Origin: Hydnum rufescens UP504
Lineage: Eukaryota > Basidiomycota > Agaricomycetes > Cantharellales > Hydnaceae
Assembly: GCA_014904985.1 (NCBI GenBank)
Contig: MU129181.1
Span: 45,795 to 69,029 of the forward strand
Length of the DNA stretch: 23,235 nt
Direction of reading: 5' to 3'
The notes under the pieces are model-generated. The model did no database searches. It saw only the letters and a list, made by a program, of their open reading frames with translations, and was not told where the DNA came from. Of this stretch, positions 36 to 22,113 are shown in pieces (the stretch's first letter is position 1; every line of letters starts with the position of its first letter). The translations under genes were made by a program, and so were the position numbers.

Positions 36-619
36 TTAATTTTCTGAATCATTTTTATGTCCTGAATGTTTTGACAATCCTTCTGGTTTTGTTTCTGAGA
101 CAAGGATCCAGTCTTCTTCATGAGGTCTTGGTCCAGTAATAAAATGGCCTGGTTCATCTGGTTCCAGTTCATCTTCTGATTCAGCTGAGTCATTTTCATG
201 TGCTGGGCGCCTAGATAATCCATCTGGACCTTGGTGTTTTGTGGCTGGAACATGGACCAATTCAAAATCAAATAGCTGAATGTAGGAGATCCATCGTGAC
301 ATAGCCGCATTTGGTAATCCTGGTGTATTAATGGTTTGCTTGAGAAATTTGGCATCTACTTCCACTCTAAAATGGATTCCCCAGAGATCATTCCTTTGTG
401 CTTTGAGTGCTTTGAATAGTCCTTTCAATTCTATTTGTGGTTGGGATACTTGGTTTCAGCTTCATTATTGGTTACTGATCCAAAGACAATTGGATGTCGT
501 CCATCTTCCAGGGTTTGATATTCAATCCATCCTACTGCCATGATAGAGCTATCCACTGCAAGTGTTACAAGGCCATAATCTGATGTTCGTTCATCTTCTT
601 TTAACACTCTGGCTATATC
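36..619 (-). pseudogene. RNase H domain of Gypsy pol, frameshifted
   Basis: RNase H removes the RNA strand during reverse transcription. The candidate catalytic acids can be picked out: D in LAVDSSIMAVGW (near 550), E in the QIELKGLF segment (near 432) and D in VEVDAKFLKQ (near 350). The frame changes at about 430, between the first and second of these. The domain ends with LFDFELVHVPATKHQGPDGLSRRP, the typical RNase H C-terminus of this lineage, followed by an acidic linker. A TAA at 36-38 closes this frame, but another frame (IKRIQTVLTTPQ) continues to the window edge and probably represents the path toward integrase. Confidence 0.8.
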
Positions 620-2161
620 AATGTTTAATGTTTTTCGAGCAGGAAGGTTTGTGGAAGCTTCTTTTAGTTGGTTCATGGCTTCTTCTGCTTGGTCATTCCA
701 TTCAAAGTCATTAGGAGTCTTCTTGGTGAGCAATGTGAGAGGTTTTGCTATTTTAGCAAATTGCCAAATCCAATTTCGAGCGACTCCAACTGTTCCTAGG
801 AATCCGCGGACTTGCGTTACATTGATTGGACGCGGCCAGTTCTTTATTTTTGTGATAATTCCATGGTGAGGTCTTCTTCCTTCCATTGAACAAACATTTC
901 CTACAATGTGTACGAGTGGTGTTGCAAGCACTAATTTAGATCCTGAGGCTGTACATCCAGCTTCAATGAATGTAGCGAACAACTCATCAACGACTTGAGC
1001 AAATTCCCATATGTATCGTCGAATTTTTGGATTTTCAGGTATAGGTTCATCATTGTACTGCGTTTTTGGTCCCTTTCCTGCTACATCATCCACAAAGGCT
1101 TCAGCTCTGTCTGGGATCATTGGTCTGATCATGTGTGTGACTGTTTTCATGAATTCTTGCATGGAATTTGTATATCCTTGAGGTAGTGTTGTGAGCTTTA
1201 CAGGACCCAATGGTGAATCACTTGTTGTGAGTTCTTGGGATTCTTCTGCCAGTCGACATCCATCATATCCTGCATAGAGATCCTGCAACAATATAGACTG
1301 AGTGTCCACATGAAGCTGTCTGCAAAGTCATTGATATTTGGTGGCAGCCCTGAGTCTTTTACTGAAACTGCATTTAAGGGCTGTAAATCATGAACAATAC
1401 GGATGCCTCCTTTAGGCTTGGCCACTGCAAACATTTGTGAACAATAGGAGGACCATGATGTTTTATATTTCCCAGCTGCTAATTGATCCTTTATCATTTT
1501 GATAAGTGTAGCCACAATTGCTTTTGGAGGTCTTATTGGTGGTAATTCCCAAGGACATGTGTGGAACTGTTTCCATAACATAGTCTGGAAAGTATTCTGT
1601 TTTGAAGATTCCTCATTCCGATTCATCAAACGCAAGACCCTTTTCTCTTTGAGCAACCACATAGAGAAGCAAATCAAGTTCTTCTTCCGAAAGAAAATCA
1701 TTGGGAATGTTGTCAATTATTTTCTTTATGCGTTCAGGGGTAAGCTTCTTGGTGTATTGAAAATCTTTGAAGCTAGGTGGATGCGTTGGAAGTTGGAGGG
1801 GTATGATGGGAGGAAGGTCTTTATAAGGAAGGCGAATGACTGGGTTTCGAATAACTCCCAAGGGAATTGGGTTTTTCTTCTTGTCCACAGTTTTATATTT
1901 CGTCTTATTGGCATTTCTGATGACCTGACCAATTTGATAGCTAAAGTCCTCCACTTTTTCTGGAGATTTTTGCACAAAATCTGGTCTTAATTCGTTATAA
2001 ACGCGTACAAGATTGTCTTCAAGCTGATTTCCAGATGTTGCTGAAGATGATTTCCAAGTTTGATTGAGATATTGTGCAGACATGCTCTCCTTGTTGATAA
2101 TAGCATCTATTAGATACTTGTTTGTGCTTGGATCAAAGTCTATTGTACGTGTTTCTGGGAG
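620..2161 (-). pseudogene. Reverse transcriptase of Gypsy pol, frameshifted
   Basis: The frame continues directly from the protease without its own ATG (the reading resumes after the stop at 2162). After an N-terminal connector comes the RT entry segment FKTEYFPDYVMETVPH just past a TGA at 1613-1615. The frame then changes twice, near 1560 and near 1300. Between the changes lie the finger and palm motifs GGIRIVHDLQPLNAV and, after the second change, LGPVKLTTLPQGYTNS and the catalytic FVDDV box (1081-1095), followed by the thumb and connection region FLGTVGVARNWIWQFAKIA. FVDD is an accepted variant of the YXDD site. Two of the three catalytic aspartates are visible in FVDD; the first (motif A) lies in the stretch disturbed by the 1300 shift. 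The copy cannot make an intact enzyme as it stands. Confidence 0.85.
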
Positions 2162-3640
2162 TCATAAGGCCTCTGACAATTCCCTTCCAAATATTGGTAT
2201 AAATGGTGAATTCCCTTTTAGTGATTGGTCGGATGGAGTTGCTTCTGTGTGATAATATTTGTAGTTTTGTGAGGGAGTTTCAGGTACTGTTCGAACTAAT
2301 GATGCTCCATTTGATTTATATCGATATTGCGGCTGTGGTGGACCTGGATTACTTCCTTCAGGTGGCTGTTCTCCTGGAGGTATTGCTGATGCTTGAAGAA
2401 CAAGTTTATTTTGCTCTCGTTCCTCATTCATAAGAGCATGGAGAGAAATAGATGATCCTGTTGGGTTTCCCTTTTCATAAACCTGAATGTCCATTCCATG
2501 ATTTCCATCTGTGGCTCCTTCGTATTTGATTTGGGCACCAACTCCTACTAACCATGGTTGTCCAAGTAGTATGTCATGGCCTTCGAAGCTTCCCTTTTTA
2601 ACAAAGAAGTGATGATCAAATCTTATCCCTCCTATTTCGATTGGAACATTTCGACAGCATCCTATAAGGGGTTCTGGTCCACTATTGATTCCTTGTAGTG
2701 ACCAGTTTTGTCCATCGTAGTCTATTGGGATGTTTAATCTTTTCTGAACTTCCTGGGAGATAAGGTTTAATTCAGATCCTGTGTCGATCATAAGCACAAC
2801 ATCTTTGGTTCCATTCTGACCTGTGGCTTTGGCTGCAATTTTTCCTGTGTCCATAGCAAACAAAGGATTTGGCCCAAGGGATCCAATCAAATTTACTTGT
2901 GCTTGATAGTTCTCTTGTGTCTGTAGATCTGTTTGCTGGGATAGGTCTTCATCCAAATCTCTGTCCATCAGGGTTCATATATGGTCATAGTATTCGTCTT
3001 GCTCTGCTTCATCATCAGAGTCATAATCAGAGGCCTCAGTTGTTGGAAAACGCGGTTTAAAGGTGGCATGATTAACTGTAAGGGGCTCTCGATGTTTAGG
3101 ATTATAGTCACGTTTCAGTTTAAGTCCAGCTGCAAATATTTTGGCTGCTCCATGTGCTGATCCAAGGAAGTCTCCGAGTGTTATTTCGACTTTTTGATTG
3201 AGTACTTTCTTAGCTATTTCTTTATCTTCACATGCTTCTTGAAACTCTGTGGTAAAACGATATGTTGGAGGATTCTTTGGGATTCGTTTCTCAGGTAGTG
3301 CCATTTCTATGTCTATTGTTTCCTCTGGGAGTGGTCCAGCCTTTTTAGGAGTAGGTTTTTCTGTTATTGGTTCTTTTATTACTGAGGAGGGCAATATTCC
3401 TGGAGGATAAGTTGGCTGCGAAGGATTTTCTGGGGTTGCTTGTTTTGGTTCTGAGGGTTTTGGTTGATTAACTGGAGTTTTAGCAGGTGTCTGGCTGCGT
3501 GGGGGTACATCAACATACATTCGATTTTTAGGGCGTTGTGTGGTTTTATCTCCCATTGGATTGTGACGATTATCTGGTTTACTTGTTTTGGTTGCTGGTG
3601 CAGATATAAATGGCCTGCTGCTATCGCATATGAGTGTGTT
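2162..3640 (-). pseudogene. Protease region of Gypsy pol, with one internal stop
   Basis: This frame is open from about 3640 and runs -1 relative to gag. It starts with a proline/lysine-rich linker, followed by a conserved helical segment (YRFTTEFQEACEDKEIAKKV) of the kind that precedes the protease in basidiomycete Gypsy polyproteins. It then contains a retropepsin core with DVVLMIDTGSELNLIS near 2750-2800 and the hydrophobic flap-distal segment HDILLGQPWLVG near 2540-2580. The DTGS aspartate is the catalytic residue, and the active enzyme would be a dimer. A single TGA at 2975-2977 separates linker from protease, and another TGA at 2162-2164 ends the frame; the same frame stays open on both sides of each. 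Both stops are consistent with CGA to TGA changes, so they look like point decay rather than real ends. Confidence 0.8.
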
Positions 3641-5088
3641 CTAAATGGTGACAATCCATTTTTGTCAACAATGCGGATTGCTCCTGTTGTTCGTTGATGG
3701 GTGGATTCCTCCCTAATTCGTTTTATGTCATCCACAATGGCTTGTTTGATCCCTCCCTTTCCAGCTATTCCTCGTGGTAGTTGTGTGTCATCCATTTTTA
3801 CAAGCCTGCCTTCAATGGAGTATTTGATGATTCCTTGACGAACCATAGCTTGGGCATCTGGACAGTTCTTCATTCCAACATTATGTGCTCCTGTTTTATC
3901 ACAGAACCAGCAAAGGGTTGTTCCAGCTGATGCATTAGGACCTTGGGAACGATTAGGTCCAAGTGGTTGATTATTTGGATAGGTAGCTGGGCTTCCTTGA
4001 ATCCGCGTTTCTGAATGATGAGGTTGCATATATGGGTTGGGAGCTTGCCCCTTTTGCTGTGATTGTGCCATGAATATTTTCATTTCATTAAAGGACTGTG
4101 TGAGATCACTGATTTGTTCTGTTACATTGCGAAGTGATGGAATGATTGTTGGCTTTGGTTTGGTGGATACTTTCTTAATGGATATAGGTGATATGGCAAC
4201 TGGTTCTTCTTCACTTTCACTATCAGAGTCGCTGCCTTCATCTTCGCTTTCTGAAACTTCTGATTCATCTGAGGAGTCACTGTATCTGCCACGTGACCTG
4301 TAATAGCTGGGCTTTATTTTCGACTTTTTGGTCTTTGTAGTGGCTCGTGGTCTTTCCTTATTAAAATGTCTGAAGTTGTAATAAAGATCTTCTTTGAGTA
4401 TGGTCTTCATTGTGTCATATGCGATGGTACAGTCCAATGGTTTTGTGTCATCAAATCCTGGAACATAGCGAAATAATGGGAGTACAATCTTCTGGAGACG
4501 TCGTGGAATCCCTTGCCAGAAAAGGTCATCTCGGTCTCGCTCAGCTAGGACTTTCTTCTCATCAAGGCATTGTACCTGTGTAATGAATTCGCGATAGTAA
4601 TCATCCAGATCTGCTTCATTGATAATTATTCTCTTTTGTTGGCAGAAGTCTGCTAGTCGTTCTCGTGTGTATCTTTGTCTTCTGTCTGTCTGTCCATATA
4701 GTTTTCTGAGACGGGTTGCTAGAGCTTCAAATGTAGTAGGATTCTTAACTTCTGGGAGGTTCTTCAGTAATTCAGCTTCCTTGTTGCTACAGAATCGAAT
4801 AATGTTCTTGCATTTCCTATGATCATCATAGAGAGCTTCGTCGCAGCAGGCTTCATAGTCAAGGAGGAAGTTATCAAGGCGTTTTCCCTTAAAATGCGGA
4901 GCATCTCTACCTGTGGGCCATGGCATTGCTCGAGGATTCACTTTGGCCATTGTTTCTGAATTGTTTGATGTCGTTATATTGTTAGATTGAAATGTTTTGG
5001 AAGAGGTGAAAGGTGTATCAAAGTGAGAACTACCCCTGTAAGGACCACCAGTTATAGAAGAAGGATTGGGAGCTCCGATGACTGTCAA
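3379..5088 (-). CDS. gag: Gag polyprotein of the Ty3/Gypsy element
   Basis: This is a 569-codon open frame. Gag forms the particle shell and binds element RNA. The N-terminal part carries the family signature RDAPHFKGKRLDNFLLDYE (about residues 60-80). A helical capsid-like region follows, then an acidic serine-rich tract (SDSSDESEVSESEDEGSD, about residues 270-290). A CCHC-like knuckle lies near residues 393-409 (C-W-F-C, then H and C, spacing CX2CX5HX5C, slightly longer than the classic CX2CX4HX4C). The last roughly 80 codons (below about 3620) read the proline-rich start of the protease region out of frame. The true product therefore probably shifts to the -1 frame there, or the frame was broken by an indel. 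The start at 5088 is the first ATG; the internal ATG before KVNPRAMPWP (near 4950) is an alternative. Confidence 0.85.
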   Translation of the reverse strand: MTVIGAPNPSSITGGPYRGSSHFDTPFTSSKTFQSNNITTSNNSETMAKVNPRAMPWPTGRDAPHFKGKRLDNFLLDYEACCDEALYDDHRKCKNIIRFCSNKEAELLKNLPEVKNPTTFEALATRLRKLYGQTDRRQRYTRERLADFCQQKRIIINEADLDDYYREFITQVQCLDEKKVLAERDRDDLFWQGIPRRLQKIVLPLFRYVPGFDDTKPLDCTIAYDTMKTILKEDLYYNFRHFNKERPRATTKTKKSKIKPSYYRSRGRYSDSSDESEVSESEDEGSDSDSESEEEPVAISPISIKKVSTKPKPTIIPSLRNVTEQISDLTQSFNEMKIFMAQSQQKGQAPNPYMQPHHSETRIQGSPATYPNNQPLGPNRSQGPNASAGTTLCWFCDKTGAHNVGMKNCPDAQAMVRQGIIKYSIEGRLVKMDDTQLPRGIAGKGGIKQAIVDDIKRIREESTHQRTTGAIRIVDKNGLSPFRTHSYAIAAGHLYLHQQPKQVNQIIVTIQWEIKPHNALKIECMLMYPHAARHLLKLQLINQNPQNQNKQPQKILRSQLILQEYCPPQ

Positions 5089-9492: not shown

Positions 9493-10920
9493 ATTCCTGC
9501 TTACAAATCTGGTGGTCCTTACAGGGAGTCACAATACCTCAATCTGAACCCTATATAATCAATTACACAACCCCTCATTATCAATATGGTGACCACAACA
9601 TACACTCCATGCTGGGACCATGTTCCAGGGATGCTCTGCAATTCAAAGGAAAAAGGATTCTAAGTTTCCTCACAGAATATGAATTCCCTGCTACTGCAGC
9701 TGGTCTCACTTCCACTCAAACTATCCATCAAAATTACCCATTATCTCAATACCAAGTCTGAACAGTTTATTGAGTCACTGGACAAGTACTTTGAAGACAG
9801 CTGGGACTCTTTCAAGTCCCATCTATTGGAATTCTATCCCTTGGAAGAGGAAAACCTTATTACAAGGTAGACCACTTTGTAATATAGTGTATTACATAAT
9901 TAAGTTAGGACTCAAAAGTCATGTATATACGGCAGTTGCCAAGATTAATAAAGAAAACCTTTGCCTGGATCTTTGTCACCTAGTGAGAAACCGTGAATAT
10001 CTGTCTCTACTCTGCTTCTATCTGCCTAGCTGGTTGGCCTGTCTAGTAGCCATCAATACTAGCCCTTTCCCTGGCTTTGGGACTGCACCTTTGGACCCTA
10101 GCTGGGAAAGCAGTGAGTAGGATAGCCCTTTCCTCTCACTGACCCCCCACTCTCTCTTTAGTTAGTGACTGTGCCACTTGGCCAGTCACTACTTTATGCC
10201 TTTCATCATGACTTCCCTTCCTTCACATCCTTTTCTCCTGTGTCCAGGGCAAAGCCAGTGCTTAGCCCTGTTTGCAGCTCCCCCACCTGAAGCCAGTGCT
10301 AAGGGTGGTGTGATTACCTCTTCTCCTATTCTCCCTATTCCTACTCCCTCCCCAGTCAACTCCACTTTGTCCAAGTACAACAACAGGTGCCCTCCTGAAC
10401 TGGGAGGCACTTTGTTACACACTTAATTAAACTCATTCAGAAGGACAGAGAGCTTTCATCTATCAAGAAGTTCAATAATTACATCTGTGAGTTTACAGTT
10501 ATAGCTAGGGTACTTGAAGAGCAAAAGTGCTATCCCAAACTGATAAATATGACTATTTTTGGAGGGGGATCAAACTGTAAGAGGTCACTGTTTAGGATCA
10601 TGACAGATGCACAAAATAGTCATGTGTGGACATGGCAGCCTGGATCTAGGTATGAAAGGGTGTATGGAAACCCCATTGCATATGTAAACTGCTATACAGC
10701 ATATATCAACTGTGGCTGGGAGCCTACAGCAGCAGAGGCAGCAAAGGACTGTCAAGTTTTAGAGCTTACAAGAGAGGAACACAGTACACAAGACAGAAGC
10801 TTAAGTGGAGTCACAATGAAGTCAGAAGATGATTTCCAGCTTCACATGATGAAATGCATATATACATATTATTTGGAGATAAGGATTGAGCCCAATGTCA
10901 TTGGAGGACATCATTTTTGA
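9493..10920 (+). pseudogene. Gag relic of a third Gypsy-type element, split by an insertion
   Basis: The plus strand carries SGGPYRES near 9510, SRDALQFKGKRILSFLTEYEF near 9630-9690, SEQFIESLDKYFEDSWDSFK near 9760-9820, then LLEFYPLEEENLI. The FKGKR-FL-EYE and YP-EEE features parallel the gag of the left-hand element. The frame shifts near 9725 and near 9860, and is then interrupted at 9880. It resumes at 10408 with THLIKLIQKDRELSSIKKF and stays open to TGA at 10918-10920. If the inserted 9881-10407 and one copy of the 8-bp duplication are ignored, the reading frame runs through the junction unbroken. The C-terminal part (10560-10917) is not clearly gag-like. It is a non-functional remnant. 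Confidence 0.6.
9881..10407. mobile_element. 527-bp insertion with 8-bp target-site duplication
   Basis: CACTTTGT occurs at 9873-9880 and again at 10408-10415, exactly bracketing this segment. Removing the segment plus one copy rejoins the gag frame across the junction, which is good evidence for an insertion event. An 8-bp duplication is the length made by hAT-family transposases, but I see no terminal inverted repeats: the ends read AATATAG... and ...CTGGGAGG. An internal AATAAA (about 9946) is present, and the segment has no long coding frame. It could be a non-autonomous element with eroded ends. A solo LTR is less likely because a TG...CA placement does not give matching flanks. Confidence 0.6.
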
Positions 10921-11106: not shown

Positions 11107-11255
11107 CCAAAGTATGACCACTAGTTTAACAAGCCCAAGCCAAGATCAGGAATCTCCTGTACACTTAGAATCAGTCTCAACACTGACAACAAACAAAGAC
11201 CAGATATTGAACATCAGGTTTCAATGGGATGGACAGGTGATGCTGAAATGAATGC

Positions 11256-14200
11256 TTAGACTTCCTGGACCTGGAAATTTGATTGAAAACCTAAACTGAC
11301 CAACAGGTTGAGAAAGGGCACACAGGCCTTGATCCCCTGCATGGTGGAGAACCTGGGAAACCAAGGTGAGATAAGGACAAGGTTTGGAGGGCAGATTGAC
11401 AACTCTTACCAGATTGATTGAAATCACAGGTGAGCAATGAATGAGGTTACAATTGTACAGAATCATTTGGCTTCAGTACATCAAATGGGACTTACATAAT
11501 CCTATGGAACATCCAATTGTAAAGGGAAGTGGGAAAATAGAATATGATTATTAGGTGGATCTAGGAACTCACATGCTACATTGTAAATGGCAGCAAAATG
11601 TTATGAGCCAGGGACCATAAACTGAATACTAAGACATGTGGACTTACATCCTATGAGGTACATTCCACCAAGTAAGAGATCTGCCAGAGATGATGAATCA
11701 AAGGGTGGGAGGTGTAGACTGACCTCCTATGGGGACAAGACCACATCAGCAACCAATGATGCATTGAATTCTGAGAGACCTGTACTTACAGACTGAATTT
11801 CCAATGCCACCAAAAGAGGAATCAACAAGGGATAATGAATTGAATTCTAAGGCACTTGCACTTACTTTCTAGATCATCAATGGCATCAAAAAATGGGTTA
11901 ATGTGGAGGATGCATTAAATTGTAGGAGACCTGGACTTACAACCTACAATATCAATACCACCAAAAGATGAATCAGTAAGGCACAATGCATTGAATTCCA
12001 ACACATCCAAACTTACATCCTATGTTGTCAATGCCACCAAAAGATGAATCAGTAAGGCACAATGCATTGAATTCTAACACACCCAAACTTACATACTATG
12101 TTGTCAATGCCACCAAAAGATGAATCAACAAGGGACAATACATTGAATTCTAATACATCCAAACTTACACTCTATGTTGTCAATGCCACCAAAAGATGAA
12201 TCAGCAAGGCACAATGCATTGAATTCTAACACATCCAAACTTACATGCTATGTTGTCAATGCCACCAAAAGATGAATCAGCAAGGCACAATGCATTAAAT
12301 TCCAACACATCCAAACTTACATACTATGTTGTCAATGCCACCAAAAGATGAATCAGCAAGGTACAATGCATTGAATTCCAACACATCCAAACTTACACCC
12401 TATGTTGTCAATGCCACCAAAAGATGAATCAGCAAGGCACAATGCATTGAATTCCAACACATCCAAACTTACAAGCTATGTTGTCAATGCCACCAAAAGA
12501 TGAATCAACACAGGACAATACATTGGATTCTAACACATCCAAACTTACACTCTATGTTGTCAATGCCACCAAAAGATGAATCAGCAAGGCACAATGCATT
12601 GAATTCTAACACATCCAAACTTACACACTATGTTGTCAATGCCACCAAAAGATGAATCAGCAAGGCACAATGCATTAAATTCCAACACATCCAAACTTAC
12701 ATACTATGTTGTCAATGCCACCAAAAGATGAATCAGCAAGGCACACTGCATTGAATTCCAACACATCCAAACTTACATCCTATGTTGTCAATGCCACCAA
12801 AAGATGAATCAGTAAGGCACAATGCATTGAATTTTAACACACCCAAACTTACATGCTATGTTGTCAATGCCACCAAAAGATGAATCAACAAGGGACAATA
12901 CATTGAATTCTAACACATCCAAACTTACACTCTATGTTGTCAATGCCACCAAAAGATGAATCAGCAAGGCACAATGCATTGAATTCTAACACATCCAAAC
13001 TTACACCCTGTGTTGTCAATGCCACCAAAAGATGAATCAGCAAGGCACAATGCATTGAATTCCAACACATCCAAACTTACATCCTATGTTGTCAATGCCA
13101 CCAAAAGATGAATCAGCAAGGCACAATGCATTGAATTCTAACACATCCAAACTTACACCCTATGTTGTCAATGCCACCAAAAGATGAATCAGCAAGGCAC
13201 AATGCATTGAATTCCAACACATCCAAACTTACAAGCTATGTTGTCAATGCCACCAAAAGATGAATCAGCAAGGCACAATGCATCAGATTCCAACACATCC
13301 AAACTTACAAGCTATGTTGTCAATGCCACCAAAAGATGAATCAGCAAGCACAATGCATTGGATTCCAACACATTCAAACTTACAAACTATGTTGTCAATG
13401 CCACCAAAAGATGAATCAGCAAGGCACAATGCATTGAATTCCAACACATCCAAACTTACATACTATGTTGTCAATGCCACCAAAAGATGAATCAGCAAGG
13501 CACAGTGCATTGAATTCTAACACATCCAAACTTACAAGCTATGTTGTCAATGCCACCCAAAGATGAATCAGCAATGCACAATGCAACACATCCAAACTTA
13601 CATACTATGTTGTCAATGCCACCAAAAGATGAATCAGCAAGGCACAATGCATTGAATTCCAACACATCCAAACTTACATGCTATATTGTCAATGCCACCA
13701 AAAGATGAATCAGCAAGGCACAATGCATTGGATTCTAACACATCCAAACTCACAAGCTATGTTGTTGCCACCAAAAGATGAATCAGCAAGGCACAATGCA
13801 TTGAATTCCAACACATCCAAACTTACATCCTATGTTGTCAATGGCACCACAAGATGAATCAGCAAGGCACAATGCATTGAATTCTAACACGTCCTAACTT
13901 ACATCCTATGTTGTCAATGCCACCAAAAGATGATCTGTGAGGGACAACAGATTGAATTCTAAGGACTCCAAACTCACATCCTGTGTTATTAATGCCACCA
14001 TAAGATCAATCAGCATGGGACCATGCATTGAATTTTAAGGCAACTCAACTTACTTGCTATGTTGTCAATGCCACCCAAGGATGTATGAACTGACTACCAT
14101 TCTTCATATGGTGGGTTGTATGCACTTACATCCTACAGTGTTCAGGTGAGCAACCAATCTATCAGCCAAGCACCTGACATCAAATTCTCAGAGATCCCAT

Positions 14201-16290
14201 CTTACACTCTATGTTATCAATATGAACAAAAGAGAAATAAGCCAGTAGTGTTGCATGCAATTCAAACATTCAGACCTACCCTCTTAGTTGGAGATGCCAC
14301 CCAAACATGAGTCAGGCAGAACCCATGCATAAATTAGTATGGTTGCTTGACTTACATACTATTGTCACAATGCCACAAAGATACATCAACCAAGGACCAC
14401 CTAATAAATGGTGGGAGATGCAAACTCACTACCTTACATTGCCCATCCCACCAAACAGTGTATCAGTCAGCAAGCTCACATTCCATTTCCAGAGATCCCA
14501 ACATACATGCTACATTTTTGATGCCATGCAGCAATGTGTTAGCCAACACCCAGGGATCAAATGGCAGGGGATATAACTCACTTCCTGTATTGTTAATCCC
14601 ACCCAATGATAAATCAGCCAGCAATCCTACATCAAATTGTGAGAGGCCATGGGCCCACCAGCTACATTGTTAATGGCAATGGCAGGGTCAGCCTGTCCCC
14701 ACACACTGAATCACAACCAAGTCAGGCTTACTTGCTAGGTTGTCAATGTCATCCAGATATGGATCAGCCAGTGATTGTGCATGAAGGTGGCAGATATTAG
14801 AACTTACATTCTACATTATCAATGTCACCACAGATTATATTAACCAGTAATCCCACATTGGATCAGAGATCCAAACTTACATGCTACATTGTCATGGAAC
14901 CAAGCAATGTATCAGAGAGTGACCACCAGTTACATTGTGAAAGATCCAGCCTTACACCCTAGATTGTACATGCCAGACAAACACATATCAGTCCACACCT
15001 GTGGATTGCATCAGAAGAGACTGGACTAACAGTCTGCATTGTTCATCCCACACAAAGATATATTAGCCATCAACCATAGATTGAATACTAAGAAATTCAC
15101 ACTTACATTCTATGTTGTCAGTGCCACCATAGGATGCATCAGCCTGTCACCCTGCATTGGGAAATATCCAAACTTACAGACTGCAGTGTCATTGTGACCA
15201 AATCAAATATCAACAAAACACCACCCATCAAATTGTGAGAGAACTGGACTTACTGCCTATGTTGTCCATGCCAGACAAACAAATATCAGCCCACACCTAC
15301 ATCAAATTGCAAGAGAGTAAGACTGACTTTCTACATTGTCCATCATCCAATGATAGATCAACTAGTGACCCTGTGCTAACTTATACTAAATCCCCACTTA
15401 CATACTGTATTGTCCATGTCACCAAATGATGCATCAACCAGCAACCATCCATGAATACTGGGAAATATGAACATACCTCCTATTTTATTCCCACCCAATG
15501 ATGTGTCAGCCAAGGACCTCATATTGAATCCACACTCACATACTATATTGTGAATGTCAACAAAATATCTGCCAATCAGCAACCATGCATTGAATTCCAA
15601 GATATCTGGACATACATCCTGTGGTGTTAATGCCACCAAAAGACTGATCAGTCAGGCATCATACATCAAACAGTGGACATCAACCCACATTCTATGTGTT
15701 CATGCCACCAAAAGTTCTCTCAATGAGTGACCACATTGAAATGTGCAAGGTACAGTCTTACCTCCTACATTTTCACCATATATCAATTGGCAATGGTGCA
15801 GATCCAAAGGTGGGAGATGCATACTCACCTGCTACCACCAAAAGTTGTACAAACAGTAATCTCACTTTACAGTTTGAGATGCAAACTCACCCCCTGCATT
15901 GCAGATCCAACCAGAAGTTGTATCAGGGACCAGCCATGCCTTGAGTGGTGGGAGATCCAGACTCACATACTGTGTTCCCAATGGCATCAAGAAATGCATC
16001 AGCCAGCTACCATGTATCAAATTGTGAGAGATCCAGACTGACCAACTACATTGTCAATTCCACAAAGAGAGATGTAAGTCAGTGATCATGCAATAAATGT
16101 TAGTCTGTGGTCATACCTCCTACATTGTCAATGCCACCCAATAATGTCACCAGTTATTGTAGTTACAGCACATGATACAATCAGTACACTGTTCACAAGT
16201 GACACAGTCACTCACCATGAGAATCTTGAACCCATTATCCCCACATAACTGGGATTCTTCATCTTCCCCAGATCCTGGGGTTCTGGTCAT
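11256..16290 (-). CDS. Putative gene made of 63 micro-exons (62 of 3 nt, one of 6 nt)
   Basis: Seen: on the minus strand, 63 segments of exactly 3 nt (last one 6 nt) are each preceded by AG and followed by GT, with unit lengths of 62-77 bp. Donors are mostly GTAAGT or GTGAGT. Acceptors end TAG or CAG (two AAG). A CTGAY-like branch site about 25-35 nt before the acceptor is visible in most copies. Model: first exon 16290-16216 (25 codons, starts MTRTPGSGEDEE, ends KILM) in phase 0, a 96-nt intron, then micro-exons from 16117-16119 down to 11496-11501. A tentative last exon runs 11402-11256 (48 codons, TAA), with a weak acceptor. In this phase none of the 64 micro-exon codons is a stop. A second phase, from the ATG at 16262-16260, is also open and strongly hydrophobic. 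Function is unknown. The splicing is inferred, not observed; the alternatives are a non-coding satellite or a step-wise spliced large intron. Confidence 0.5.
11496..11943 (-). repeat. Diverged 3' arm of the intron/micro-exon array (7 units)
   Basis: The downstream (minus-sense) end of the array again consists of diverged units with intact splice-like borders: 11941 GTT; 11866 AAA; 11790 TCT; 11724 GAG (donor GTCAG); 11648 GAT; 11573 CAT (donor GTGAG); and 11496-11501 GATTAT, the only micro-exon of 6 nt. Unit lengths are 66-77 bp. Below 11491 the pattern stops: no further AG-N3-GT pair fits, so the terminal exon must follow, if the array is a gene. Confidence 0.8.
11944..13905 (-). repeat. Homogeneous 76-bp core of the array (26 units)
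   Basis: These are nearly identical 76-bp units, each a 73-nt intron (GTAAGTTTGGATGTG... to ...CATTGACAACATAG) plus a 3-nt NNT micro-exon. Positions (lowest coordinate): 13903 GAT; 13827 GAT; 13754 CTT; 13678 CAT; 13602 TAT; 13536 CTT; 13460 TAT; 13384 TTT; 13309 CTT; 13233 CTT; 13157 GGT; 13081 GAT; 13005 GGT; 12929 AGT; 12853 CAT; 12777 GAT; 12701 TAT; 12625 TGT; 12549 AGT; 12473 CTT; 12397 GGT; 12321 TAT; 12245 CAT; 12169 AGT; 12093 TAT; 12017 GAT. A higher-order period of five units (380 bp) is visible: the variant with CAACAAGGGACAATAC or close to it precedes the AGT copies at 12169, 12549 and 12929. Units of 66, 73 and 75 bp also occur. Confidence 0.95.
13906..16119 (-). repeat. Diverged 5' arm of the intron/micro-exon array (30 units)
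   Basis: These are old, diverged copies of the 76-bp unit. Micro-exons (lowest coordinate, minus-sense triplet): 16117 GAG; 16043 TTG; 15967 TAT; 15891 GGG; 15829 CAG; 15762 GAG; 15689 AAT; 15616 GAT; 15540 TAT; 15477 GAG; 15402 TAT; 15328 AAA; 15254 GCA; 15178 TCT; 15107 AAT; 15031 ACT; 14956 GGT; 14881 CAT; 14808 AAT; 14732 CAA; 14659 CTG; 14582 GAA; 14507 CAT; 14430 GTA; 14356 TAT; 14280 AGG; 14206 AGT; 14130 GAT; 14054 CAA; 13978 GAT. Spacing varies from 62 to 77 bp because introns carry indels, yet each exon stays 3 nt. Donor variants are GTAAG, GTGAG, GTATG, GTCAG, GTAGG, GTGGG and GTTAG. The micro-exons at 14280 and 14430 have AAG acceptors. Intron bodies share mainly the donor, the CTGAY-like site and the GGTGGCATTGACAA-like tail. 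Confidence 0.85.
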
Positions 16291-16340
16291 GATGTTCCCT
16301 AAATATAGACAAATTGTACCATCATCTCATCAATACAGCT

Positions 16341-17864
16341 TCAGACAGGACCTTTGGCTCCACTCTCAAGGAGAACACTATGAAATAAACATGACTTTTA
16401 GTCACTTTTAATCTGTTGGACATCCACACTCACCGGATTAATACATATATCGTATGAATTCGGCGGTTTCTTTTCCAAACCGTGAGCCTGAGCAATGCTC
16501 TCTGGGTCTCATGGGGGAGAGCATCCAGAGTGGCTCGAAGAAGTTGGTTGCATGATGCTGTACTCTCCTCACTAACTTGGTCCATGTCTTTAAGCCATAA
16601 ATTTAAGTACCAAATTGCAGCCCAGATAGAGTATACATACTTCTGACCCTGATGAAACCAGCAGGTGGGTGCTGGTGGTCCCGAAATTGTGTCTCAAGCC
16701 CGTTAACAAATTCAGCCACTTTCTGCTCCGCCTTCGGGCACAATCGAGGAAATCGGATTGGCTGGGATCGGGGCCGAGAACCTCGCTCATCACCTTCGTC
16801 TCTCTTCCATCCAGCTTGGTGAAAATCCCTACAACAGGCACTGAGGGATGCACGGACCACTGCATCACATGTAGGGTCGAACGCGGGGACTCATGAGACA
16901 TACCTGATGCTGTGGGTTTGGAGAAAAAACCTGACCGGAGGAATCCAAATGGTCTATCATTATCTGTTGGAATGCAAAGCCTGTAGCAATCGATAAGTTG
17001 AAGTATGATGACGTGAGAACATACATAGATAAACGCACCAAATCGCATGCAACTGTCGTGAAGGCGAAGCTAATGAGCGGTCTCGAATAAATTCCCAGAC
17101 AGCCTCGACCTCCTTGACACCTCCTGCCTCGAAACCACCAGAATCATGAAAAACGAAGTCAGGGTTTGATGCGTAAGTGATTTCGTCGTCAATCCTGTGG
17201 ATCCCTCGCTAGATGGCATGGAAACATCAAGCAACCTGTGGGCCGTTGCTAGGATGGCTCTTACTTGATCATCTCCCCTGGGGTCCTGCTGAATCTGAGA
17301 GATAAAAGGATGGATTAGACCAGCATCTCTACTCAGCTCAAACAACTGCAGTACTTACACGGTTTCCGTTCCGGGTCACTATAGCCGCACCGGCGGGGCT
17401 GTCTGTTAATCGCTCGAGCAGAGTGGTCTTTCCTGCGTTCGCCGGTCCAAGTATGAGGATCCTGAAGCGGTAGTTTGTATCGGGAAGGGAGACACTGTCT
17501 TCGTCCGAGACTCCTTCGTCCGAGACTCCTTCGTCCGAGACTCCTTCGTCCGAGACTCCTTCGTCCGAGACTTCTTCGTCCGAGACTTCTTCGTCCGAGA
17601 CTTCTTCGTCCGAGACTTCTTCGTTGGGGCCTTCTTCGTTGGGGACTTCTTCATCGGAAACCTCTTCATCAGGGACCTCTTCGTCGGGATTTGTTCGTTG
17701 GAGACTTGTTCGTCGGGGACTTGTTCATCAAGGGCTTCTTTGTCGGGGACCTCTTTGTCGACCTGTTCACCGGGGACTTGTTCACTGGGGACTTGTTCAT
17801 CGGGGACTCGTTGCTTGGTGAGTTTCTTGGGGAGTTTAAAATGCTTGCGGATCGATTTCAACAT
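16341..17864 (-). pseudogene. P-loop GTPase (fungal G-domain protein), two single-base frame breaks
   Basis: Likely a GTP-binding protein of the large mushroom family; its cellular role is unknown. Exons by reading frame: 17864-17359, 17294-17265, 17208-17039, 16980-16904, 16840-16641, 16587-16434, 16377-16341, with GT-AG introns of 53-64 nt. The start at 17864 gives MLKSIRKHFKLPKKL, followed by an acidic pentapeptide repeat and then the G domain: G1 [10 protein letters not shown]3 DSGGFE (after RGIHRIDDEITYASNPDF), LHAIWLCIPTDNDRPF, and G4 VPVVGIFTKLD. Two 1-nt losses break the frame: one in the repeat near 17688, one near 16755 between DFLDCA and KAEQKVAEF. With both breaks counted, the exon lengths come out two bases short of a clean frame (1174 nt). 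These are true decay or sequencing errors; family-like sequence resumes after each. If exon 7 ends at TGA 16341 the protein is about 391 residues, without the C-terminal membrane part of its neighbour. Confidence 0.75.
17495..17815 (-). repeat. 15-bp minisatellite coding acidic pentapeptides V(S/P)(D/N)E(E/Q/G)
   Basis: About 20 tandem 15-bp units lie inside exon 1 of the minus-strand GTPase. The 3' part contains eight near-identical GTCTCGGACGA-centred copies (starts 15 bp apart, 17501 to 17606). The 5' part is more varied (VPDEQ, VPSEQ, VPGEQ, VPDKE). In the frame of the G domain the units read [10 protein letters not shown]; in the frame of the start codon the same bases read KKSRT. The one-base difference near 17688 (9 instead of 10 bases at a repeat position) switches between the two. 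The Arg-Leu frame on the plus strand is a shadow. Confidence 0.85.
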
Positions 17865-18474
17865 GGTTGACGGACTAGAGAAAGAGAGAGGGATCGAGCG
17901 TACGTAGGTGTGTGTGAAATGTTTCATCGATTGGATACTATAAAATGTCAAAGCCAGGCAGCAGGAGCATTCCTGTTATGTCAACTTGAGTAGCTTCTGA
18001 CGGAGGAGTCCGGGACGCTTCATCGAGATAGAGTGCTTCTGGGGACCGGTGTGGCCGAGTACGGCCTGATCTGGAAAGAGTGACCCAGACACACATACAG
18101 CAAATCAGAGGGAAATATTACGATATGACGGATTTGATAGCGACACCCGGAAGTGGCCAGATCTGACCGCCCTGATTACTCCTGATCACACTGGACAACA
18201 GCCCGACTTTGCGTGAGTGACCAGGACGGTGTCTGGCCAAAGAATGTACCAATCGCCATATCAGACAGTTGCGGCTACGGGAGAGAGACGTGCTCGACCT
18301 CACCTCTCCTTGTTGACCTTTTGCACGCTTCATTCCCTAGGATCCCACGGCTCATTTGGGCAGTACGTTGTTTTCTGTAGCTTCTATTCTGATGGGTAAG
18401 AACGTGGCCTCCCCGTGTCCCCAATTCAGGATACACCGACAATCAAACTGTCTCTGTACTCCATCCGTTAGCCA
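17865..18474. promoter_or_regulatory. Shared intergenic region of two head-to-head GTPase genes
   Basis: These 610 bp separate the start codons of divergent genes (minus start 17864, plus start 18475), so both promoters must lie here. A TATAAAA is seen on the plus strand at 17939-17945, but it is far from the plus start and in the wrong orientation for the minus gene, so I do not assign it. No other motif is convincing, and the short open frames here have no family content. Confidence 0.45.
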
Positions 18475-20765
18475 ATGACGCCTCTCTTCAAGTTCCTCCG
18501 TCGATCGCACCGCCCTCCTATGCCGGATCGGGCGGCTGGCCCTTATACTGTGGATTCCACTCATCCGGGGATCGAAGCTTCGCGCGAGGCTGAGATACCT
18601 CAAGCATCAACCAATCCCGCCAACGTCCCGCAGAACACCTTCCTGCTCAGACCCACCACCGACTCTCTCCTAGAGGATTCTAGGTATGCCACGCTCTTCA
18701 TCCATAACCCCTTCCATGTTCAAGTAGTGTCGCTAGGTTTAGGGTACTCGTTGTGGGCAAAGTAAGCCATGTATCCTTTCCGATCCACCTCACTCACTAT
18801 GGATCCGTAGTCAGGGGTGGGGAAATCTTCTTTGATCAATGCAGTATTCCGTGCCAACAACCTCACTGTACGTCCTCTACTCCCCAAAAATCTCGCATTC
18901 GATTCCACTGTATGTTACAGAAAACCTCCGATGACCACGCCATTAAACACAATATTGACGAAGAATTCACCTCTCATGATAACGATCGACTCATTCTACA
19001 TGATTCACAAGGATTCGTTGGTGGTGATATTGGGAATCTTCGAACAGTCCAGGAGTTCATCAAGAGGAGGAGCGCCGAAAGGGAGCTTAAAGACAGGCTA
19101 CATGCAATTTGGTGCATATAATCTTATCTTTTCTCCAGAGTACACCCATGACATCCTCATTTCTCGAGGCTCTAGGTTGTGCTGCGAGATTCCCGTTTCT
19201 GGAGGTCGAGTTTTTGAATTAGGAGATGAAATACTTCTCAAGGACAATGCCAACAACGGTATAGTGATCATTTCTCTTGAAAATGGTGTTCCTGTGCTAA
19301 GTTGGAAACGCACCCTTCCGCATCCCCCAAGTTCCTATCATTGTCGTATTCACCAAGTATGACCAGCTTGTGGTCCAAAAGAAGTTTATTCTCGCACGGT
19401 CCCTTGCTAATGCTGACAAAGTGGAATGGGTGCGTCAGGCCGAAGAGGCTGCTACGGAGGAGGTGAAAGTCCGCTGTGAGAAGCCCCTCAACGCCGTAGC
19501 AGGCAGTAGACATACATGGACCGAAGTTTCTAGTGCGTACTATTGGTTGAATGACCTTTATTCTCGACTAATAGAGTCTGATTTCCAGCGAGGAACGAGC
19601 ACAAAGACACTATCAGGAGACTAATCGACCTCACCATGAACTCTATCCTTGCGGCCACTGATCCGAAACCCCAGACAACGGTGGGCCAGGGTACTGCCGA
19701 TTCAGACCAACCGAATCTTGAAGGCTTGCTCTTCGCGGTTGCTCAAAGAGGTAGTCTCGGCACAAAGATCTCAACATCGATTCGGTCAGTCCAGTCTATT
19801 CACTATTGCTGGTCTAACGTTCACATTCTGATATGAGATCTTCCAGGGTCGGGAAACACAGTGTGTCCATTTTGGAAGCACCAGAGATTCCGACCTCATG
19901 TCCACCTTTTCGCTTCTATAGAGTATTGGGGCTATATGTTCTCTGGAACCTTTAACGGCATTCCCCTGGATGAATGCGTTGGGGTCATTCATGATGATAT
20001 CGTCAACGTCTGGAATTTTAATGATCCGAATCATCAGGTACGTCTTGCATCAGCCCTGACGATTCTTCGGACTCAGAGAGTTTTTGGTGTAGTGTCTAAA
20101 GTCGACAGAATTCCGAAGCCTGATGACGCATCTGGTCAAAGATCTTGCAAGCGAGCGTCCGAATCCTCCGAGTCTGTAAGCATTACCCTGTCCTCAAATG
20201 TAAATGACAAAGTCTTTGACTGAAATACCTCAGCCTTGATAACGTCATAAGGATTATGCCTCCTGCGGTTGCGGTGGCTACGAGTGTCCCACCTGCGGCA
20301 CCATTTGTCCTTCCAGCTGCAGCAGCTGTGGCCCTGGCTTCATGGGTCTATGGAAAATACCGAAGAACGTGGGTGCCCATCATGCGTAGACGAAGCTCCA
20401 GTTAAATCATGCCATACTATAGTCCCGAAATCCTTCGATATCTGATGGGATATGTGATCGACATCATCATTGTGATGAGCTGTTTATTTGCATTGGTAGA
20501 TTCGCGTGGATTGGATCGGATATCTCCTGCGATGGTCAATCTCGTGCTGAGGGAGTATTCACAGCAGAAGGGCAGCATCCATGAGCAGGTCAAGTCGTAC
20601 GTCAACGACGCCACGCTCCCGGTGTTGAGACCGAAGCGCGCAATCGACCGGATATCTGACCTTGTCAAGGTTGAGCAGTACAGGGAACTTCATGAGGCAG
20701 TGATATTATCTGCCCCAAGACTCCTCGACGATAAAGAAAAGTGGATCACTCCAGATATGATCTGA
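18475..20765 (+). CDS. P-loop GTPase with C-terminal membrane segments, 12 exons, 548 aa
   Basis: Exons: 18475-18683, 18743-18761, 18811-18867, 18921-19111, 19176-19258, 19332-19532, 19589-19784, 19847-19860, 19922-20037, 20093-20175, 20234-20368, 20423-20765. All introns are GT-AG, 49-73 nt, and the exons sum to 1647 nt (549 codons including TGA), so the frame closes exactly. Motifs: G1 VVGKSGVGKSSLINAVF (P-loop residues about 75-82), G3 LHDSQGF (about 122), the family segment ELKDRLHAIWLCCEIPVSGG, and G4 IIVVFTKYD (TKYD about 194-197). Then come RRLIDLTMNSIL, VIHDDIVNVWNFNDP and FRSLMTHLVKDL. Near residues 398-428 there is an alanine/valine-rich hydrophobic stretch, and near 442-460 YLMGYVIDIIIVMSCLF; both suggest membrane association. 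It belongs to the fungal G-domain/MMR_HSR1-like group; substrate and pathway are unknown. Exons 2 (19 nt) and 8 (14 nt) are unusually small. Confidence 0.88.
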
Positions 20766-20800
20766 ATCTTGACGCTCGTATTTCATGGACTATACATATA

Positions 20801-21190
20801 TTATATGCAAGATCCTGTAATTTTGAAATGAACGCAATACTGAAGAACGAGGCATGAATCTGGACAAGTTAAATGCATTTGGGTCCCTGGTACTGCAAAA
20901 CTTAAACTAACAAGGCGACACCCCGAAAGGCTTGAACTTCCCACAAGTGCACTAGGAAAGGCAGTCCTAACATTGTTTTGCAGCCCATTGCTAACGTCAC
21001 CACCAAGCACTTGTGTCACTCCTCGATAGTGTCCTTTAGCTTGGACTTCCGCGTTGCCTGGTCGGCAGATCGAAGTCGGAACTGGTTCCCATAGAGCTCG
21101 AACTGAATGCCAAGTTCGATTGTTGAAGTCGATACGAAAGGCACCCGTGGGGGGAGGATTGGAATAGTAATGAACCGGTTGGCGGGACAT
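20801..21190 (-). CDS. Hypothetical protein, weak support
   Basis: An uninterrupted minus-strand frame starts with MSRQPVHYYSNPPPTGAFRI at 21190 and ends at TAA 20801, 129 residues. The first half is polar and looks plausible as protein; the second half is serine/cysteine-rich without recognisable motifs. No intron is needed. It would be convergent with the plus-strand GTPase, with stop codons about 35 bp apart. The frame may be fortuitous, since other frames over the same bases are also partly open. Confidence 0.25.
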   Translation of the reverse strand: MSRQPVHYYSNPPPTGAFRIDFNNRTWHSVRALWEPVPTSICRPGNAEVQAKGHYRGVTQVLGGDVSNGLQNNVRTAFPSALVGSSSLSGCRLVSLSFAVPGTQMHLTCPDSCLVLQYCVHFKITGSCI

Positions 21191-21196
21191 CTTCAA

Positions 21197-22113
21197 TTAT
21201 CCATAGGCTATCTGTAGGGAGACTACTGAGCATGCTAAAGTACAACAAAAAGGGATGAGAGGAGTCAGATAGCTGGTAATATCAATTTTGGCAGGCTGCC
21301 GATTGAGCAACCTGAATAAAAGGGGTAGAACTCACCCTCTTCGAGTTATTGCGACTATCGATGTCACCGGAACTGAAACGGTACGTAATATGCTGCTGGC
21401 TGTTGGTCGCGCCGACGTTTGTGCACAGAGGCTGGTTAGTGGTTATAGACTTACAGTGGGGTCTGGTCACGAGACTAACTGACAGTATAAGCGCCTCGGA
21501 TATTGCCGATTGTTTCGAGTCTATTCTGGCGTCGACTCTATGGCATTGCGGGTTTCCTTCGTGGCCGGTGTTTGCTGCCATTCGTGTCAGGTTCACGGTG
21601 GAACAGGATGGAGCTCACGCCTCTTTTATTTCTGGGTAATTTCGGGCATGCGAGCGGTCTTTCTGAAGGCAATCGCCTAGTAAACGCTTTACACAGAGAT
21701 CCTCTAATTTTGGGGAATCAACTTGCGCCATCACGTCAAAAACGTCGGGGATACCGGCTTCGAGCGGTTCCCATCATAACGAGGCTTCAACCGCGCTTCC
21801 GTCCCGCATTGATTTATTTTTGACTCTGACTAACATGGGTTTGACTCGGAAGACGGCCACCACCTGTCTTGTTCTTTGGGTCCTGCGATCGTCGGTGATC
21901 CCCCTGCCCCCTGCCCCCTGTTACGTCCCTATGCACCAAATTGTCTTACCTATCTCATACAACGCTGTACCTGTCTCGTCAAATTGGCTATTCAGTGGGT
22001 ATTGCCCATGGCTCGGTAGTGGCTCAGTTTGGTGCCCTTTAAGAGAGGGTGACTTCTGAGTTTGTGTCTGGCCTTCCTGTTCCTCTTGGCTGTATATTTC
22101 CTTTCGCGAATCG
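21197..22113. other. No supportable gene, about 920 bp
   Basis: Several overlapping plus-strand frames (21288-21823) are open for 60-106 codons, but none shows family motifs or introns that join into a longer frame. No repeat or RNA gene was recognised. Base composition resembles the neighbouring gene region and not the AT-richer repeats to the left. Confidence 0.35.

Follow-up and report, generated by a model that had tools for sequence, protein, structure and literature searches.

Genes built from unusually short exons have been described in several eukaryotic lineages. In aphids, the bicycle genes form a rapidly evolving micro-exon family, whose conserved relative megacycle encodes about 2,000 amino acids in more than 100 micro-exons (PMC9168663). 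In Schistosoma, micro-exon genes (MEG) encode secreted proteins from exons of 3 to 81 bp, separated by introns of up to 5 kb (PMC10526429). Ultra-small exons are also known singly, such as the 1-nt exons of Fusarium CYP621A (PMC12940212) and of Arabidopsis (PMC4674806), the 3-bp micro-exon of Drosophila homothorax (PMC7392893), and the micro-exon of Trichoderma Xlr2 (PMC11121469). Families of similar short fungal introns include introner-like elements (PMC4457414) and the repeated stwintrons of Hypoxylaceae (PMC8469720, PMC9024468). Here we describe an array of consecutive one-codon exons in Hydnum rufescens UP504, an ectomycorrhizal member of the Cantharellales with a genome sequenced at the Joint Genome Institute (PMC7550596). 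The stretch of DNA analysed, called the window below, comprises 23,235 nucleotides of contig MU129181.1 (positions 45,795 to 69,029 of the forward strand). On its minus strand, the 3' part of a multi-copy GTPase gene is predicted to be split into 63 exons, all but one of them a single codon, and we consider it highly likely that these are spliced and add a variable tail to the protein. This reading is carried by the anatomy of the gene, the invariance of the splice sites, the continuous frame between coding exons on both sides, the agreement of the 5' arm of the array with protein sequences, and the contrast between codons and introns in its core.

The array resembles the bicycle and megacycle genes in its many micro-exons and its place in a fast-evolving gene family, but megacycle exons encode up to about 20 residues, unlike the one residue per exon in Hydnum, and the internal exons of bicycle genes are almost all in phase 2, whereas those of the Hydnum array are in phase 0. 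Furthermore, the bicycle proteins are putative insect gall effectors and not GTPases, and the part of that source consulted describes no tandem repeat of an intron plus a codon (PMC9168663). Short exons and variable proteins are likewise shared with the MEG, but no series of consecutive one-codon exons appears in the consulted part of the account (PMC10526429), and the Hydnum gene combines array introns of 59 to 80 nt with a GTPase domain. The isolated exons demonstrate that 1 to 3 nt can be spliced, also in a fungus, but in the portions of those reports consulted they stand singly in ordinary genes and not by the dozen in series. Introner-like elements and stwintrons are, as far as the consulted parts of their descriptions go, dispersed in the genome or nested, whereas the near-identical introns of Hydnum follow one another within one gene with one codon between them. 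The array was seen only in Hydnum and in the short-contig proteins described below, other fungi being compared through their proteins alone. Basidiomycete “G domain-containing” GTPases (P0042 from Plicaturopsis and P0044 from Stereum) are 36 to 37% identical to the domain encoded by the first eight exons. An initial annotation of this DNA had noted that no such fungal gene was known to it; in agreement with this, we found no equivalent of consecutive one-codon exons in the literature, which was mostly open-access and judged largely by titles and the starts of abstracts.

The initial annotation had also read the minus strand as 63 introns separated by single codons. Dynamic programming with exon length left free between 1 and 12 nt, fixed at one end by the donor that follows ...ILM (16216) and at the other by the acceptor at 11337, recovered the same arrangement from 16119 down to 11496, with 62 exons of 3 nt and one of 6 nt. 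GT follows and AG precedes the short segments in 63/63 cases each; the donors include 39 GTAAGT, and the acceptors comprise 51 TAG, 10 CAG, and 2 AAG. Although 27 of the 62 inner introns deviate from 73 nt (range, 59 to 74), every exon is a multiple of three, as had been claimed. The initial annotation also described a CTGAY-like branch site as kept; a CTRAY motif lies 8 to 60 nt upstream of the acceptor in 45 of the 63 introns, where 52-nt windows of the array contain such a motif at a frequency of 51% on the sense strand and 21% on the antisense strand. Thus, the exons carry the canonical signals of spliceosomal micro-exons. A simpler, unanchored chain, which lacked the branch bonus and used splice matrices trained on the same window exons, recovered 38 exons of 3 nt and one of 6 nt, 39 in all, on the sense strand; the antisense strand gave 4, of which one had 3 nt, and none of 30 first-order Markov simulations gave more than 3. 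Tandem Repeats Finder (TRF) picks up only the homogeneous core (11952-14083, 28 copies of 76 bp).

Alignment of sister copies and comparison with annotated proteins place the array, in frame and between ordinary exons, in the 3' part of a P-loop GTPase gene. The last ordinary exon upstream (16298-16216, 83 nt) is coding, and the GTPase part ends NIMTRTPGSGEDEESQLCGDNGFKILM before the first micro-exon. The array exons are in phase 0 between ...ILM and GIKA. By comparison of copies, the first exon after the array (11301..11336, minus strand) encodes GIKACVPFLNLL, also in phase 0; the frame continues past the array as GIKASVPLLKVL-EIAYLGLLN followed by TAG. The last coding exon (11121..11156, minus strand) reads EIPDLGLGLLN plus the TAG stop, a triplet present in 23/23 copies.

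The family assignment is supported by a near-invariant N99-A-G-K-T-T104 and an invariant TK.D among 26 homologues, corresponding to the G1 and (T/N)KxD motifs of GTPases. With an AlphaFold model of P0001 (mean predicted local distance difference test score, 71.6) as query, Foldseek ranked GTPases best (septin, GIMAP, Rac, and IRG; best E value, 5.8e-5), with query TM-scores of only 0.19 to 0.39. The Pfam family MMR_HSR1 scored 20.0 bits, under its cut-off of 21.9, and a sequence search of the PDB found no relative. The closest homologous proteins are BS47DRAFT entries of Hydnum rufescens UP504; other Agaricomycetes share the G domain, the best matches being P0042, P0044, P0045, and P0049 (36 to 39% identity over 77 to 91% of the query). 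Four of the 10 copies examined are open through all eight GTPase exons, and C65 and C164 are open up to the last one (names of this kind denote copies of the gene family in the Hydnum rufescens UP504 genome). This reading-frame test used a 12-nt-shorter version of one exon, and C32a, one base short at the alignment edge of exon 1, is not judgeable before exon 5. The ratio of nonsynonymous to synonymous substitution rates of the GTPase exons ranges from 0.22 to 0.43 in the six pairs formed by the four fully open copies; the GTPase exons are under purifying selection.

Probes from the 3' end of the array and from each flank each match at least 40 genomic sites, one of them that of the window itself. 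In the free parse, most exons of many sister copies are 3 nt long: 84/86 in C133a, 82/86 in C303, 72/76 in both C476 and C14, 55/58 in C243, 48/51 in C6, and 45/47 in C32b, as well as 25/25 in the distant copy C35 with a similar parser. Only 2 to 15 exons were parsed in C123, C252, C281, C10, C217, and C489, where some arrays are cut by the ends of contigs or of the fetched sequence. The initial annotation had offered its claim of selectively conserved splice positions to a test by column statistics, and the claim passed. In a MAFFT alignment of 10 copies that took no account of splicing, 24 of the first 27 micro-exons were alignable in at least 8 of the 10, and the flanking AG (48/48) and GT (48/48) positions were invariant, that is, 96/96 columns versus 64% of the 1,540 intron columns. 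For the last three micro-exons, AG and GT are invariant in all 12 columns in 23/23 copies.

Protein sequences bear on splicing itself. Among the 38 homologous proteins examined (36 of the 90 matches in one search and 2 new matches from another), five run from ...ILM into the array, namely, P0041, P0091, P0033, P0092, and P0034. The contigs behind them measure 0.9 to 1.5 kb, and their open frames cross intron positions of the gene; from the absent introns, we infer that they are very likely transcripts. P0041, whose 1,186-bp contig has no introns, reads ...FRILM-ELYGCENDYEYKASDNLDHEKAEHDALE and then DSRYHID; P0091 has ELYGCENDYEYKASDNLDHEKAEHDALE and DSRYHID as well, and the two probably represent one gene. 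P0033 reads ELYGLEDLYEYKTPQAHNLENENEEQHQLETVY followed by VSPDPY, P0092 reads ELYGCENDYEY followed by VGWGYLW..., and P0034 reads ELYG followed by VSLPLL.... The P0041 string was threaded on nine genomic copies as one AG-NNN-GT exon per residue. It matched 28/28 consecutive single-codon exons in C243, 27/28 in C373, 26/28 in C6, 24/28 in C133a and in C32b, 21/28 in C65, 20/28 in C32a, and 13/28 in the window copy, with no path in C14; shuffled strings (50 per copy) reached at most 13 on any copy and at most 9 on C243. The match belongs to sister copy C243 and not to the window copy. Provided that the contig derives from RNA, the 28/28 agreement means that such exons are joined in mRNA, and splicing of the 5' arm as a series of single codons is thereby supported at the level of sequence comparison. 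The remaining array is predicted to be spliced like the 28 codons of the sister copy. The earlier reading as a series of spliced single-codon exons is thus supported for the 5' arm; for the core, which none of the proteins examined crosses, it stays a prediction.

None of the NCBI models examined contains the array. Those that extend past ILM (P0001 to P0006, P0008, and P0011) end within 3 to 41 residues without the ELYG string; the end of P0002, DYVSVDSI, reads as micro-exons 8 and 9 plus the next intron.

In the core of the array, hypervariable codons are set in homogenised introns. Nucleotide diversity (pi) was calculated from a first parser and limited to 3-nt exons within 6 mismatches of the unit consensus (in the window, 23 of the 37 parsed units). 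Over 11 arrays, pi at codon positions 1 and 2 is 0.50 to 0.78, with one value of 0.22 (C65), versus 0 to 0.18 at position 3 and a mean of 0.00 to 0.07 in the introns. Core codons end in T in 219 of 226 cases in these arrays, and the fraction of T at the third base is 0.92 to 1.00 in the core versus 0.53 to 0.65 in the arms (8 arrays). G, H, Y, V, and L make up most of what these codons encode (203 codons). At codon position 1, A occurs in only 12/226 and G in 99/226 core codons; tyrosine is absent from the 42 core codons of C476 and abundant in C133a and C14.

Two overlapping block duplications in the window, at offsets of 5 and 10 units, have rare intron variants in common and have kept some of the same codons (AGT and TAT). 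They differ at 26/1168 intron positions, 11/32 first and second codon positions, and 0/16 third positions, the two comparisons sharing units. Pooled over the runs found (in 3 of 6 arrays searched), the differences are 114/4964, 79/136, and 1/68, respectively. C133a, C303, and C476 yielded no such run, and runs at overlapping offsets in C14 are weak. Core units seem to have been copied together with their codons, after which, by these counts, the codons change at about 15 times the rate of the introns.

Several observations weigh against complete and efficient splicing of the array. All five transcript-like proteins leave the register, after 4 (P0034), 11 (P0092), about 29 (P0041 and P0091), and 33 exons (P0033), and each does so within the 5' arm or where that arm ends, through a retained intron or a cryptic acceptor; full and efficient splicing, like that of the core, is thus a prediction. 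The tails of P0092 and P0034 resemble the translation of the next, retained intron in fetched copies. In P0041 and P0091, the loss of register involves skipped exons and a cryptic acceptor: SRYHID lies inside the array in 8 loci, and in C243 it directly adjoins, on the downstream side, the AG of a GTAAG located after a later micro-exon, suggesting a cryptic acceptor. P0016 keeps the first array intron, directly after ILM. The P0033 string fits no threaded copy well (9 to 11 of 33), and by eye it resembles the distant copy C35. Among the 38 proteins, none crosses the core or reaches the C-terminal exons, nor did protein database searches with whole-array queries find a protein crossing the core. 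The RNA origin of the short contigs is itself an inference from their sequence. The common end SRYHID comes after a micro-exon whose acceptor in C243 is a weak TAAG.

Some sister copies and conservation values also count against the proposed reading. The share of 3-nt exons is less tidy in C65 (63/83), C32a (58/83), C74 (59/84), C373 (66/78), and C2 (30/44), in which exons that break the frame, with 2, 4, or some other number of nt, are common; several copies require one to four introns of more than 100 nt, and parsing failed in C133b and C164. The last exon retains its acceptor in 22 of 23 copies, and in C281 eight bases of that exon are deleted. Exon bases of the 5' arm are no more conserved than the introns (pi of 0.156, 0.109, and 0.134 at the three positions versus 0.108). 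In the core, single intron columns reach a pi of 0.63, block duplications occur in only 3 of the 6 arrays searched and are convincing only in the window, and the 15-fold contrast in rate between codons and introns seems large for selection to produce by itself. Exons of 2 or 4 nt are numerous in the arrays of copies C65, C32a, and C164. The 2-nt exons of C65 and C164 are CT, GT, TT, or a lone T, resembling homopolymer shortening, with indels in nearby introns, and C32a is messier; we tentatively take such exons as decay or assembly error.

Three other explanations of the array have to be considered. (i) Splicing could be mostly incomplete, with the array acting as a drag on expression through truncated GTPases and decayed transcripts, the core rarely or never translated, and its variability produced by local mutation. 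The stops of 5/5 transcript-like proteins in a retained intron or after a cryptic acceptor, and the first array intron retained in P0016, are what this would produce. However, the splice sites of the last micro-exons and the TAG stop beyond the array persist in 23 copies, as would be expected only with complete splicing at least some of the time, and variation is largely limited to codon positions 1 and 2, as in translated sequence; we regard this explanation as unlikely. (ii) Mobile introner-like introns could have been inserted into an older coding sequence, without growth by duplication of intron plus codon. Such insertion would account for near-identical introns between unrelated codons, and codon differences are indeed uncorrelated with intron differences: unit pairs with identical 73-nt intron flanks differ at a mean of 1.26 of 2 codon positions, and those with at least 8 intron differences at 1.31. 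However, the window blocks at offsets 5 and 10 share rare intron variants and some codons, so units seem to have been copied with their codons, and the near-uniform third base T of the core, not found in the arms, fits whole-unit copying. We regard insertion as still less probable. (iii) A decaying satellite with fortuitous GT...AG around three bases, to which the detection of the 76-bp core as a tandem repeat by TRF would correspond, is very improbable, as the initial annotation had argued: splice dinucleotides are invariant where the introns are not, P0041 follows the exon order 28/28, and the core triplet varies most, the opposite of satellite homogenisation and of the uniform repeat, lacking selective splice-site conservation, that an ordinary satellite would be.

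If the array is spliced in series, as we propose, its short introns would be recognised by intron definition, so that exon size would be irrelevant. Unequal crossing-over or block duplication of units of intron plus codon would add or remove whole residues and leave the frame intact, and the core codons would change by diversifying selection or by a raised local mutation rate. With two variable codon bases and a fixed T, 15 residues would be possible and a stop never. Each GTPase paralogue would thus carry its own tail rich in G, H, and Y, about one residue per exon, positioned between the GTPase domain and the conserved C terminus. From its variability and the number of copies, we would guess at a role in recognition of self or partners, perhaps in partner choice.

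More tentatively, the core may be described as a coding satellite, a tandem repeat in which each unit comprises one spliceosomal intron and one NNT codon, with the intron homogenised and two codon bases scrambled; we consider this formulation possible but somewhat doubtful. The repeat machinery would homogenise the intron and alter copy number in whole-residue steps; diversifying selection or targeted mutation, as a focused process, would alter only the two informative codon bases. Since no stop codon ends in T, every dinucleotide would be legal and a new tail could evolve almost freely. The effect would be comparable to that of a diversity-generating cassette, possibly one serving recognition.

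Within the array, the 5' arm (14130..16119, minus strand) contains 28 single-codon exons by the parse, with splice-site columns invariant in 10 copies over the 24 alignable exons. Their first bases and codons are 16119 GAG, 16045 TTG, 15969 TAT, 15893 GGG, 15831 CAG, 15764 GAG, 15691 AAT, 15618 GAT, 15542 TAT, 15479 GAG, 15404 TAT, 15330 AAA, 15256 GCA, 15180 TCT, 15109 AAT, 15033 ACT, 14958 GGT, 14883 CAT, 14810 AAT, 14734 CAA, 14661 CTG, 14584 GAA, 14509 CAT, 14432 GTA, 14358 TAT, 14282 AGG, 14208 AGT, and 14132 GAT. The core (11941..14056, minus strand) has 29 single-codon exons, from 14056 CAA to 11943 GTT, in a mostly near-homogeneous 76-bp repeat, with hypervariable and mostly NNT codons. 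The 3' arm (11496..11868, minus strand) has 11868 AAA, 11792 TCT, 11726 GAG, 11650 GAT, 11575 CAT, and the 6-nt exon GATTAT (11501-11496).

Upstream of the array, the N-terminal coding region (17359..17864, minus strand) comprises the start MLKSIRKHFK (17864), a charged region of 15-bp repeats, and then G1 (P-loop, 17472-17359); its homologues are P0001 and P0002, and in the window copy the start and the G1 part are in different frames. The 15-bp tandem repeat (17498-17808) encodes VSDEE or SRTKK depending on the frame, which changes nearby in this copy. From the 10-copy alignment, GTPase exons 2 to 5 lie at 17294-17265, 17208-17039, 16980-16904, and 16840-16641 (minus strand) and contain the motifs HDSGGFEAGG, LHAIW, and FTKLD. 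Exons 6 to 8 (16587-16434, 16377-16352, and 16298-16216, minus strand; supported by protein P0002) end in ...FKILM directly before the array. Exon 5 measures 200 nt in the window copy versus 201 nt in 7 of 9 sisters (202 nt in C32a and 199 nt in C133a), so that the window frame is shifted at about 16752; the one-base difference may reflect mutation or an error in the sequence. Near this position (minus strand), part of exon 5 is missing from the annotated model P0002.

Two other views of the array were rejected. A transposable element had been suggested by an apparently sharp flank end at 10876, but the sequence beyond it is common to other copies, and the copies are GTPase genes. A non-coding array had been suggested by early flank alignments judged by eye without exon/intron contrast and by stops, in some copies, in the first-guess frame of one exon; the annotated proteins place the acceptor of that exon 12 nt upstream of the first guess.

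Elsewhere in the window, a divergently oriented neighbour (18735-20765, plus strand) appears to belong to the same GTPase superfamily (LHDSQGFVGGDIGNLRTVQEFIKRRSAERELKDRLHAIW within 18930-19118). Over 15098-21316, the window and copy C32a align colinearly at 87%, indicating that the neighbour and the array gene were duplicated together there. At 431-5088 (minus strand) are open reading frames resembling a long terminal repeat retrotransposon, with an aspartyl protease above the Pfam cut-off (PF13650), reverse transcriptase and RNase H below it, and one further open reading frame without a Pfam match.

If the proposed reading is true, the Hydnum array is an extreme intron-exon architecture, in which about 4.6 kb of DNA serves about 64 residues. 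An exon of 3 nt is too short for exon definition, which makes the array a natural test of pure intron definition; likewise, these genes would test how long a series of minimal exons can be and how faithful splicing can be over more than 60 consecutive introns. Because the array was missed by the annotated models examined, more cases may lie hidden. For the evolution of the family, the array would represent a simple route by which a tandem repeat lengthens a protein without frameshift, and with hypervariable codon bases set in homogenised introns, selection versus targeted mutation becomes directly testable.

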